Source: Lachnospiraceae bacterium
Lineage (GTDB): Bacteria; Bacillota; Clostridia; Lachnospirales; Lachnospiraceae
DNA length: 64,000 bases
NCBI GenBank assembly: GCA_015057025.1
Contig: SVFD01000002.1
Span: 248,001-312,000 of the forward strand
Reading direction: 5' to 3'
Below are positions 32,263 through 34,787 of the stretch, piece after piece (within the stretch, counting starts at the first letter, position 1; each line of letters starts with the position of its first letter). A program made the position numbers and the translations under genes. The notes beneath the pieces were generated by a model. That model was not told the DNA's origin and made no database searches. It saw only the letters and a list, made by a program, of their open reading frames with translations.

Positions 32263-32619
32263 TTATAACTCCTCTAAAATTTCATTGGATATCTTGCGAA
32301 TTTCTCCGCTTTTTACTTTCATCTGCTCTATATCTTCCAGAGCATCCATCTCATCCAGCACCTTATGAATCTCACCGGCACTTGATTTTATCTTCATAAA
32401 CTTCTCTACCAAATGAAGCTTATTCTCATAATCGTTTAAAATCTTATCGCAACGTTTCAGCAAGTCATGTACGCCCTGACGACTAATTTCATACTGCTCT
32501 GCAATCTCGCTTAAAGACATATCATTGAAAACCGCCTCTTCATAGATAGCTTTCTGGTGCTCTGTTAGAAGTTCACCATAAAAGTCGTATAACATGCCTC
32601 TTTCCACGATTTTTTCCAT
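32263..32619 (-). CDS. ylxM: YlxM / UPF0122 DNA-binding protein
   Basis: A 118-residue protein with a sigma-like helix-turn-helix (YEEAVFNDMSLSEIAEQYEI and SRQGVHDLLKRCDKIL) and a C-terminal coiled coil. It accompanies ffh in Firmicutes and is thought to modulate SRP. The ATG at 32619 has AGGAG seven bases upstream; a longer reading from 32655 has none. Confidence 0.93.
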   Translation of the reverse strand: MEKIVERGMLYDFYGELLTEHQKAIYEEAVFNDMSLSEIAEQYEISRQGVHDLLKRCDKILNDYENKLHLVEKFMKIKSSAGEIHKVLDEMDALEDIEQMKVKSGEIRKISNEILEEL

Positions 32620-32689
32620 GATAGTTCTCCTAATTGACGGTTGTTTCCCATCCACTTAACGGGCATAATTATCCCACAACCTTGCTAAT

Positions 32690-32736
32690 CATATAACAAA
32701 AGAAAAGCTCTGTCAAGTATTTTTTCTTGACAGAGT
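32690..32736 (-). terminator. Terminator downstream of hairpin element 1
   Basis: CTCTGTCAAG and CTTGACAGAG form a 10-bp stem within 32707-32736, with a T-rich tail on the minus strand. There is no gene end close by on this strand. The upstream gene already has its own terminator at 33239-33269, so this one fits an independent minus-strand transcript covering element 1. Confidence 0.65.
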
Positions 32737-32800
32737 GTGAAATAATTTGTATTGGATGTAAGGAGAATTGGATAAGAGGATTGGATTAACGGACGCAATA

Positions 32801-32931
32801 AGAAGATTGGTATTTGCGTTTTCCGGGACGCTCTCGCTTGATTGTCCTACGCAACGGTACATAAGGTTGTAAAAAACACAACCCAAGTACCGGCGAGTAC
32901 AAACACCCTTCAAACTGCAAATACCAATCCT
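32801..32931 (-). repeat. Structured hairpin element, copy 1
   Basis: Read on the minus strand: outer arm GATTGGTATTTGC (917-929 side) and its perfect complement at 32805-32817, a GGG/CCC pair, CTCGC/GCGAG, then a core hairpin CGGTAC-TTG-GGTTGT-loop-ACAACC-TTAT-GTACCG at 32855-32892. The core and the segments after it (GTTGCGTAGG and GCGTCCC) match copy 2, which lies in the opposite orientation. No ORF of real protein character covers it. It may be a non-coding RNA or a non-autonomous mobile element. Confidence 0.75.
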
Positions 32932-32940
32932 CCCCTTGCT

Positions 32941-33085
32941 GTGCTATGAAAATGCAAATGATTTTATGTCTTATTTATTATATTGTTTTTCAGGTAAAAC
33001 TGATGAACCATAACCGTATAAATTGTTGCTATCTTATTGACTCAACAAAGTACATTCTTGACCATTCTCTTATTTATTAGTACAC
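32941..33085. other. AT-rich gap between the two hairpin elements
   Basis: 145 bases without a gene or repeat. On the minus strand there is a TATAAT-like box near 32979-32986 with a weak -35 region, a possible promoter of the copy 1 transcript. On the plus strand a TTGACC occurs near 33058, upstream of copy 2. Neither is convincing alone. Confidence 0.3.
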
Positions 33086-33226
33086 AGGCTGGGATTTGTA
33101 TATATCCATTAAAGGGCTTTTGTGTTCGTCGGTACTTAGGTTGCGTCCTTTGCAACCTTATGGTACCGTTACGTAACACAACAGAGTGGAAACGTCCCTG
33201 AAAGGGATATATACAAATCCCAGCCG
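33086..33226 (+). repeat. Structured hairpin element, copy 2
   Basis: A long nested hairpin. The 21-bp outer arms at 33087-33107 and 33205-33225 are perfectly complementary. Inside are AGGG/CCCT, TTGTGTT/AACACAA (33120-33126 / 33175-33181), CGGTAC/GTACCG (33130-33135 / 33163-33168) and AGGTTGC/GCAACCT (33138-33144 / 33152-33158). The core is nearly identical to copy 1 in reverse orientation. The outer stem has different sequence but the same pairing, the sign of a structure kept by selection. Confidence 0.78.
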
Positions 33227-33238
33227 TCCTCACCCCCC

Positions 33239-33269
33239 AAAAAGAAAGGGACGAATTTACATTCGCCCC
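33239..33269 (-). terminator. Terminator at the end of the fla/che operon
   Basis: GGG-CGAAT (33248-33256, with one mismatch) pairs with ATTCG-CCC (33261-33269), followed by TTTCTTTTT on the minus strand. The hairpin overlaps the last codons of the MltG-like gene. It ends the long minus-strand flagellar/chemotaxis transcript. Confidence 0.75.
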
Positions 33270-33865
33270 GCTAAAATCTCCGCTATCATATCCCAATCTG
33301 CAGTTTTAGGAATTTCATGCGCTCCGGTCTGAAGAATTTTATCATAACCGTTTGCACATAAAAAATCATCATACATCTGGGCATCTTCCACCAATCCGGC
33401 AGCTTCCAGTTTCACACTGACCGTATCGGAACCGTCTCCGGAACCCACTTCAATAATAACAAACTCCTCGACCTCTTCACTTGTTTCTTCTTGTGAATTA
33501 TCTTCTTCCGATGCAACCTCAGAAGATGAGTCCGAAACTGCTTCACTGTTATTTTCAGATGTAACTTCTGAAGTATCCGTTTCAGAATTCGAAACACCTT
33601 CATCCTCGGAAATATTCTCAGATACATCTTCTATAGAATCCTGTCCTGATGTTTCAGCAAGATTTTCTTCACTAACACTTTCAGACTCTGTTTCGCTTGA
33701 AAGTTGCGAAAGCGTTACGCTTTCTACCATTCCAAGTTCTTTTGCTCTCGCTATAATTTCTTCATCCGTAAGGTTCTCTTTTCCGCCACCGGCAAGCATC
33801 AACACTGCCGCTGTCACAGCAATACCGATACCGAGACCTCTCAGATAGTATTTTAACTTCATAAG
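33257..33865 (-). CDS. Membrane-anchored Ser/Glu-rich protein with MltG-like end
   Basis: 202 residues: a membrane helix at residues about 5-26, a short DEEIIARAKELGM segment, a low-complexity Ser/Glu/Asp/Thr linker of about 90 residues, and a C-terminal module (VSVKLEAAGLVEDAQMYDDFL, then GYDKILQTGAHEIPK) that resembles the LysM-like part of the endolytic transglycosylase MltG. The catalytic MltG domain is absent. The ATG at 33865 has AGGAG nine bases upstream. The protein probably reaches into the cell wall; function unknown. It is the last gene of the fla/che operon. Confidence 0.68.
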   Translation of the reverse strand, partial: LMKLKYYLRGLGIGIAVTAAVLMLAGGGKENLTDEEIIARAKELGMVESVTLSQLSSETESESVSEENLAETSGQDSIEDVSENISEDEGVSNSETDTSEVTSENNSEAVSDSSSEVASEEDNSQEETSEEVEEFVIIEVGSGDGSDTVSVKLEAAGLVEDAQMYDDFLCANGYDKILQTGAHEIPKTADWDMIAEILAGRM

Positions 33866-33884
33866 AATATACTCCTGTTTTTCT

Positions 33885-34787
33885 TTAGCTTTGCTGATAT
33901 AAATCAATTACCAGCTTTACTTCACCCACACCCAAGCCTAATTCCTTAGCAATTGCAACATTGGACTTTCCTTCATTATGCAAAGCAAGAATCTTTTCAT
34001 TATGATTGCCTTGTCCTACTCCACCTGAAAAGGTAGGCATGGAAATATTATCTTTCTTTGCCGATATCTTAGTTGTACTTTTCTTTTTCGTTGCAGGCTT
34101 CTTTTCTTTTATATCTGACTCAGATTTCTTATCTGCTTTAGCCACATCCTTATTGGCAATCTCTGCAATAATTTCATCCTCGCTCTTTCCTTTTTTCTCT
34201 GGAAAAAGTTCTGCATAAATTTCATCTACACTGGTTTCTTTGCCATCCAAAATCACAGTACCGTTTTCAGTCACTTCATAAGCCGTGTCATCTGCACCGG
34301 TTTTACTGCCTGCCTCTGCTCGTTCTACTACACTAATAGCTTCTTTTACACTCATAACGGCTTCTTTGGCCTGATTCACTTCGTGTACTGCCTTCTTAGC
34401 TTCTTTGGTAGACTGTTCCATACTTGCAACCGTACTCTTAATGTTATCGTGTTTATCATTTAACATGGAATACAAAAATACTGCTTCTTCATGATTTTTA
34501 TTGATATCCTGTAAAACAGTATCCGAATATTCATTGACAGCCATGATTTTTTCATTGGAAACACGTTCTAAGTTTCTTTCTGCCTTCTCAACGGCTTCCG
34601 CAACTGTTTCATCTACACTTTCAGTCAACTTCTCTTTGGCGCTTTTAAGCTGCTCATCTACCATTTTTTGTATCTGTTCGCGTTGTTTCTTCTCATCATT
34701 TTTATCACTGTTTTTTTCCGGAAGAATAAAGCTAACGATAAAAACAATAATTCCGCCCAACAGAAATACTATCTGCAACCAGTTCAT
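33885..34787 (-). CDS. DUF6115-like membrane coiled-coil protein (SwrB-like position)
   Basis: 300 residues: a membrane helix at residues 3-23, a basic segment, a long coiled coil (about 30-170), a low-complexity Lys-rich linker, and a C-terminal helix-turn-helix-like module NEKILALHNEGKSNVAIAKE. The same layout and the position downstream of sigD recall Bacillus SwrB (YlxL), an activator of flagellar export assembly. The similarity is by architecture and location. Confidence 0.7.
   Translation of the reverse strand: MNWLQIVFLLGGIIVFIVSFILPEKNSDKNDEKKQREQIQKMVDEQLKSAKEKLTESVDETVAEAVEKAERNLERVSNEKIMAVNEYSDTVLQDINKNHEEAVFLYSMLNDKHDNIKSTVASMEQSTKEAKKAVHEVNQAKEAVMSVKEAISVVERAEAGSKTGADDTAYEVTENGTVILDGKETSVDEIYAELFPEKKGKSEDEIIAEIANKDVAKADKKSESDIKEKKPATKKKSTTKISAKKDNISMPTFSGGVGQGNHNEKILALHNEGKSNVAIAKELGLGVGEVKLVIDLYQQS

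Follow-up and report, generated by a model that had tools for sequence, protein, structure and literature searches.

A dispersed structured repeat of Lachnospiraceae, probably of the MITE kind, seen as an inverted pair of hairpin elements

RESULTS

Two inverted copies of one element

The window, the whole 64,000-nucleotide stretch of DNA analyzed here, belongs to the genome of a Lachnospiraceae bacterium (G000; G001, G006, G013, G015, G020, G030, and similar handles denote other sampled genomes). The gap between two of its open reading frames, 32263–32655 and 33257–33907, both on the minus strand, is occupied by two copies of one element lying head to head: copy 1 at 32801–32931 on the minus strand and copy 2 at 33086–33226 on the plus strand. 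The spacer between them, 32932–33085, was compared with the same locus in G006 and G001. A preliminary description of this DNA had reported two homologous, oppositely oriented hairpins here, and the folds bear this out. Copy 2 (33080–33232, plus strand) folds with −74.7 kcal/mol (z = −9.15) and copy 1 (32795–32938, minus strand) with −62.1 kcal/mol (z = −7.53), in each case with 0 of 200 shuffles as stable, and the two copies with short flanks have a mean column identity of 80%. The opposite strands of copy 2 and copy 1 fold too (z = −8.80 and −5.52, respectively), as is the case for any long inverted repeat.

The 15 copies that were read, 13 of which were aligned, share one plan. A variable outer stem (P1) leads to a GGG/CCC stem that closes a three-way junction, and the junction carries a small GNRA-type hairpin (GTGGAAAC at 33186–33193, plus strand, in copy 2; GCGAGAGC at 32830–32837, minus strand, in copy 1) and a long arm. 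Along the arm come CGC/GCG, interrupted by a 2-base bulge, then CGGTAC/GTACCG, then an internal loop (TT/TAT), and last the apical stem. The bulge (YT) and the internal loop are identical in all 13 aligned G000 copies, and one pair of the mini hairpin is C-G in copy 1 and U-A in copy 2. The conserved core, from the three-way junction to the apical stem, lies at 32820–32915 (minus strand) in copy 1 and at 33107–33203 (plus strand) in copy 2, as defined by the alignment and by matches to the covariance model described below (G000:C8:280820–280915, 106.7 bits, E = 6.4e-24, and G000:C8:281107–281203, 102.6 bits, E = 7.4e-23). The outer stem of the window copies is 13 bp long, and the four differences between the copies are all compensated; these, like the previously quoted core and GGG/GTCCC pair, can be read in the sequence and the folds. 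Outside the outer stem, copy 1 has a 5′ end motif ACAGC (32938–32942, minus strand) and a 3′ end motif GCGTCC (32791–32796, minus strand), and by eye the same motifs also stand outside some other copies. A separate small AT-rich hairpin (CTCTGTCAAG ... CTTGACAGAG, 32708–32736) lies upstream of the 32263–32655 reading frame and is retained in G001 and G006 with small changes.

Copy number, taxonomic spread, and genomic context

A covariance model was built from 13 of the first 15 copies, excluding two with odd tips. It finds 38 matches in G000 at E ≤ 0.01, and 39 down to E = 0.03; since the core recurs so often, the hairpin pair is not a product of chance. Of the 39 matches, 23 are 89–97 nt long and 16 are 102–109 nt. 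At E ≤ 0.01, G001 has 54 copies and G006 has 42. Among 61 relatives sampled, 29 genomes match, namely, 27 of 31 from the same genus, 2 of 6 from the rest of the family, and 0 of 24 from other families. The core is present in 111 of 299 sampled Lachnospiraceae genomes (110 of 298 genera; these family-wide counts score at most 14 matches per genome), and all 11 matching genomes in a class sample of 391 are Lachnospiraceae. Of the three guesses in the preliminary description, that of a Lachnospiraceae interspersed repeat is thus the one supported. A pattern scan of named genomes returned at least 118 stretches, and among the 80 matches listed, 41 are labeled Lachnospiraceae. Some pattern matches are on contigs filed as Muribaculaceae, Bacteroides, Gastranaerophilales, and Selenomonadaceae, which we suspect to be misbinned Lachnospiraceae.

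Neither the window nor 10 element loci gave a match to Rfam covariance models at the gathering score; three weak matches (E up to 5) were not over element cores. Carriage by phages or plasmids was rejected: blastn against plasmid and phage collections gave no match to the element, and the core pattern matches three contigs of a viral collection. The titles and abstract openings of the papers listed (top-ranked entries where results were many) contain nothing on this repeat family, and it appears not to have been described so far in what is a major gut lineage.

The copies lie between genes, with only 1 of 39 examined G000 copies inside an open reading frame of at least 110 aa. At the 118 listed loci, the orientation relative to the left gene is the same in 55 cases and opposite in 42, and relative to the right gene it is the same in 54 and opposite in 58. 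Neighbor proteins at these loci form no cluster of more than 10 loci, and cis-regulation via a fixed neighbor was rejected accordingly. For the retron named among the earlier candidates, in which a reverse transcriptase gene would lie next to the RNA, this lack of a recurrent neighbor is the observation at hand. A partnership with the Rpn-like nuclease was also rejected: 5 of 1,126 ORFs match it, including the query itself and one gene counted twice in overlapping loci. No leading-strand bias is seen by GC skew (51 of 106 loci), and no upstream sequence common to 15 copies was seen.

Mobile units with the same core in other genera

Thirteen copies were aligned from genome G241, which belongs to another genus. 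Twelve of them form units of about 225 bp bounded by recognizable terminal inverted repeats of 18–19 bp (TAGGTAATTGCGAAACTCT/AGAGTTTCGCAATTACCTA); the thirteenth has lost these repeats. Among 45 units with ends of the TAGGTAATTGCGAAACTCT/AGAGTTTCGCAATTACCTA type from G241, its genus, and G148, exact target duplications of 9–13 bp were found at 15 and not at the other 30 (up to 3 bases trimmed per end), compared with 7 of 1,980 mismatched flank pairs that reach an 8 bp duplication in the control. Eleven of the 45 units with these IS1182-type ends are shorter than 140 bp and cannot accommodate the core; exact duplications flank some of these as well. Units of about 42–50 bp, barely more than two facing terminal repeats, occur at loci L403, L405, and L421 and in G365.

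The G241-type ends also delimit two insertion sequences (1.77–1.79 kb) found on viral-collection contigs; their transposases have 485 and 507 aa. The transposase of locus L383 matches DUF772 (E = 1.1e-12) and scores 68.4 bits with the IS1182 model (NCBIfam NF033551), against a cut-off of 270; by these scores, the putative enzyme is a distant IS1182 relative and not a family member by the NCBIfam cut-off.

A second type of unit occurs in G219, where the initial part of the alignment matches in four copies. The three copies compared at length share 283–316 bp with the ends GGGTGTCAAAAGCCCTTA/TAAGGGCTTTTGACACCC (slightly altered in two of them), which are unrelated to those of G241, and all three have 8 bp duplications by eye, one with a mismatch. 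These 8 bp duplications suggest that the type may be IS256-like. The exact G219 end pattern was found in 0 contigs of the viral collection. The same core is thus carried by miniature transposons of at least two kinds, those of G241 and of G219. The 2-base bulge is also present in the G241 copies, and some G241 elements have extra or double tips. The tips are branched at L367 and L353 (G241), and one element has two copies of the tip CTTRGCGAG...CGAGCYTAG.

Ends, mobilizers, and age of the copies in the window genus

ACAGC and GCGTCC are the only end motifs seen on G000-type copies. The IS1182-type end motif is no closer to 39 G000, 54 G001, and 35 G006 elements than shuffled motifs are, and such ends were rejected for the G000 copies; the exception is one side of the G006 element C6:116525, which has the motif with one mismatch. 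No target duplications were recognized at copies in G000, G001, or G006. DDE_Tnp_1 (PF01609) is absent in all four genomes searched, G000 included, and was discarded as a mobilizer. An IS1182-like transposase is missing in 15 of 16 genomes, G000 among those without it, and present as a fragment in the remaining one. No living mobilizer was therefore found. We file the G000 copies as MITEs by the homology of their core only and infer their mobility from relatives in other genera, where short units, multiple copies, terminal inverted repeats, and target duplications, with no transposase gene, were found in the G241 and G219 types.

The preliminary description had named an IS200/IS605 origin among its candidates. 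The conserved tips and bulge do resemble the ends of such elements, and Y1 transposase (PF01797) is found in 17 of 31 genomes of the genus, including the element-rich G001, G013, and G015. However, there are 0 matches to PF01797 in G000, G006, G020, and G030, all of which are also element rich, and Y1/RAYT was rejected as the mobilizer. IS200/IS605 elements transpose as single strands without terminal inverted repeats or duplications, whereas relatives of the element have both, and no strand bias was seen. Descent from an IS200/IS605 or REP/RAYT-type single-strand transposon is consequently very improbable, and this part of the earlier proposal is not supported.

Sixteen of the 39 G000 elements have a counterpart in G001 or G006 whose flanks match on both sides (54 of 54 G001 and 35 of 42 G006 elements were used in this comparison), and many G000 copies are thus old.

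Covariation and G-U pairs

In the 13-copy alignment, 95.4% of the cells pair and double-sided changes are seen at 16 of 29 pairs; its covariation score is 0.430 versus 0.165 in shuffles, and 0 of 500 shuffles reach it. A larger alignment (A3) of 112 rows holds matches from 100 of the 118 listed loci, retrieved with a pattern in which part of the core, with the bulge, is fixed, and fitted to the model. In it 91.3% of the cells pair, 25 of 29 pairs covary, and the score is 0.494 versus 0.143. Further pair types show no excess over shuffles in the 13-copy or the 112-row alignment (159 and 420 of 500 shuffles, respectively, reach the observed value). The GNRA-type loop is present in 79 of the 112 rows; 31 rows were not parsed by the expression used, and 2 have other loops. 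Further copies were thus found in the host and its relatives, the stems covary beyond shuffles, and Rfam gave no match, so that none of the three refuting outcomes named in the preliminary description came true.

G-U pairs make up 42 of 2,802 standard pairs (1.5%) in A3, compared with 19 of 188 (10.1%) in tRNAs from the same material, a control of only nine genes. Free folding of 128 elements gives G-U shares of 2.5% for outer-stem pairs and 6.8% for core pairs, and because of the latter value the G-U argument is weaker for the core.

The changes themselves were followed in 22 orthologue pairs, hand-picked from 33 (those omitted were mainly cross-matches among lipoprotein units). Of 552 stem pairs of P1, 402 are unchanged and 7 are gapped. 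Changes on both sides led to a Watson-Crick pair in 53 cases, to G-U in 1, and to no pair in 12, and changes on one side gave 56 mismatches, 14 G-U pairs, and 7 Watson-Crick pairs. G-U thus accounts for 14 of 70 one-sided changes to G-U or mismatch in P1 and for 21 of 70 in the core, where about 26% is expected from the flanks (980 transitions and 891 transversions). The pooled divergence is 0.193 for P1, 0.147 for the core, and 0.173 for the flanks, coding parts included. At C11:419550 the arms reach 0.42 and the flanks 0.18, and 11 of 26 stem pairs have changed on both sides, all still paired; a rule that arms evolve faster than flanks was rejected, as it is true at some loci only.

Selection on RNA should favor G-U intermediates, while template switching need not, and the outer stem therefore looks DNA-like; the core is less clear. 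The few G-U pairs and the one-sided changes, which show no clear excess of G-U, fit pairing at the DNA level better than selection on RNA. Template switching in replication has been reported to create and maintain hairpins (PMC8794818). In addition, because the element has jumped as the passenger of transposons in relatives, its covariation alone does not prove that it is a regulatory RNA. Selection on the core is nonetheless needed to account for the conserved loops, as the interior of a plain MITE needs no conserved structure.

These data bear on two alternatives. If the element were a structured regulatory RNA, made by read-through or as its own transcript, the fold would act on mRNA stability or a protein partner and RNA pairing would be selected. 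The strong covariation, the conserved GNRA-type loop, which is typical of RNA, the 6.8% core G-U in free folding, and the location of all but 1 of 39 copies outside ORFs of at least 110 aa agree with this, as does the proposal that the NEMIS and ERIC MITEs act as RNA (PMC2229807). However, the comparison with Rfam yielded no known family, the copies show no clear orientation preference to the left or right gene, 15 of them lack a common upstream sequence, the G-U share in the alignment is far below that of the nine tRNAs, and G-U is not clearly enriched among one-sided changes. We consider a regulatory RNA unlikely. The selection on folded RNA suggested earlier is weakly supported: the stems covary as was stated, but G-U pairs are rare, one-sided changes are not clearly biased to G-U, elements lie in either orientation, and no neighbor cluster exceeds 10 of the 118 listed loci.

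The second alternative is that the folded module is selected as DNA, with the core of one strand being the ligand of a host protein of replication, the nucleoid, or repair, and that it was captured by unrelated miniature transposons. This would account for the same core within two kinds of transposon ends, the low G-U share in the structural alignment, the bulge and internal loop constant in 13 of 13 G000 copies, with the bulge in G241 too, and the extra or double tips of some G241 elements. Against it stand the lack of any known protein partner, the even leading-strand distribution (51 of 106), and the 11 of 45 units with IS1182-type ends that are too short for the core, some with exact duplications. 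We regard such a folded-DNA module as rather unlikely.

The window locus in relatives

At the window locus, G001 has kept copy 2, while copy 1 reads by eye as a core-less relic, and no gene lies between them. G006 (C13) has a similar relic together with a lipoprotein gene of 258 aa (minus strand) and an adjoining ORF of 313 aa (C13:80756–81697, L310), which is presumably Rpn-like; a partial form of the Rpn-like ORF matched no Pfam family. Lipoprotein genes of about 240–270 aa also lie between inverted (−,+) pairs at three other G000 loci (C12:89514–90731, C12:98808–100085, and C13:61695–62987; L046, L216, and L033), and such genes occur at one locus each in G001 and G006. A Pfam scan of the lipoproteins at C12:89.5k and in G006 gave no family match. 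Because G006 keeps a lipoprotein gene at the window locus and like units exist at three G000 loci, the window pair is best read as the putative remains of a unit whose lipoprotein gene is gone. Between the same outer genes, the cargo can differ: where G000 has the lipoprotein gene of C12:89514–90731, G001 (C39:4635–7836, L305) and G006 (C7:17781–20882, L306) have a two-gene unit that looks MecI/MecR1-like by eye.

It might be suggested from this difference in cargo, and from the lipoprotein genes inside (−,+) pairs at three G000 loci and one locus each in G001 and G006, that the elements are boundaries of exchangeable gene units, the inverted pairs letting cargo swap by recombination through the hairpins. 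However, among 10 G000 neighbors within 5 kb (hand count), 6 are (−,+), 4 are in the same direction, and 0 are (+,−), which is a weak excess; of the 39 elements, about half stand without a neighbor in that range; and the flanking hairpins are not of one type. As an account of the element, such a boundary role is improbable.

DISCUSSION

The window hairpins are probably old copies of a MITE-type DNA repeat that is non-autonomous, dispersed in Lachnospiraceae, and built of modules as the pneumococcal and S. suis BOX repeats are; the scheme that we propose takes in the core, its mobility, template switching, and the gene units. The constant part would be the core of about 90–109 nt, folded as a three-way junction at the head of a long outer stem. 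As seen in other genera, the core is flanked by terminal inverted repeats, its insertions are marked by target duplications, and transposases acting in trans would spread the DNA, with lineages differing in the ends used. In the window genus, an earlier burst of a similar kind may have placed about 40 copies between genes, after which the mobilizer would have been lost. Hairpin-templated strand switching would then copy changes from arm to arm and keep the stems complementary, assisted by selection for the folded core. Finally, as the comparison at the window locus indicates, and perhaps as a general rule, inverted pairs may bracket small gene units.

A bolder interpretation sees in the core a folded module that stands on its own, is under selection to bind a host factor in the form of single-stranded DNA (or RNA), and has repeatedly been captured by unrelated miniature transposons across Lachnospiraceae. 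We hold this possible but doubtful. If it is true, the loops would be fixed, the stems would turn over as matched pairs, the tips would multiply in some lineages, and the passenger, rather than the transposon, would be the evolving unit.

The 13-copy model can be used for annotating the repeat in gut Lachnospiraceae, where one structured core is housed in miniature transposons with different ends. The results also advise caution, as strong covariation of stems, the usual proof of a functional RNA, is accompanied here by a scarcity of G-U pairs and by arms that turn over in a paired manner at orthologous sites. The elements are a good natural test of the maintenance of hairpins by template switching.

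Several known systems can be compared with the repeat. The REP/REPIN and RAYT systems (PMC3116915, PMC2817692) likewise involve many intergenic palindromes per genome, but the Lachnospiraceae hairpin is far longer, and Y1 transposase is absent from G000, G006, G020, and G030. With the IS1182 family the repeat is linked by the G241-type ends, which match those of the two 1.77–1.79 kb insertion sequences, whose transposase is distantly IS1182-like; in contrast, the elements have no transposase, that transposase scores under the cut-off, and the G000 copies are without these ends. The Correia/NEMIS, ERIC, and RUP elements are similar, by their description (PMC2229807), in being short, in having no transposase gene, and in their stable folds, and they have terminal inverted repeats and target duplications, which are found here in the G241 and G219 types. 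The Lachnospiraceae core differs from what is related there in spanning 110 of 298 sampled genera and in having two kinds of ends. The BOX repeats of Streptococcus pneumoniae and S. suis are dispersed in Firmicutes, modular, and extensively structured; in S. suis the same middle modules lie between different end modules, and mobilization via an insertion sequence with similar ends has been proposed (PMC3049150). No tandem boxB arrays were seen in the Lachnospiraceae repeat, and the host family is different, but it is likewise dispersed, structured, and modular, and in this comparison, by description only, it seems closest in style to BOX (PMC3049150).
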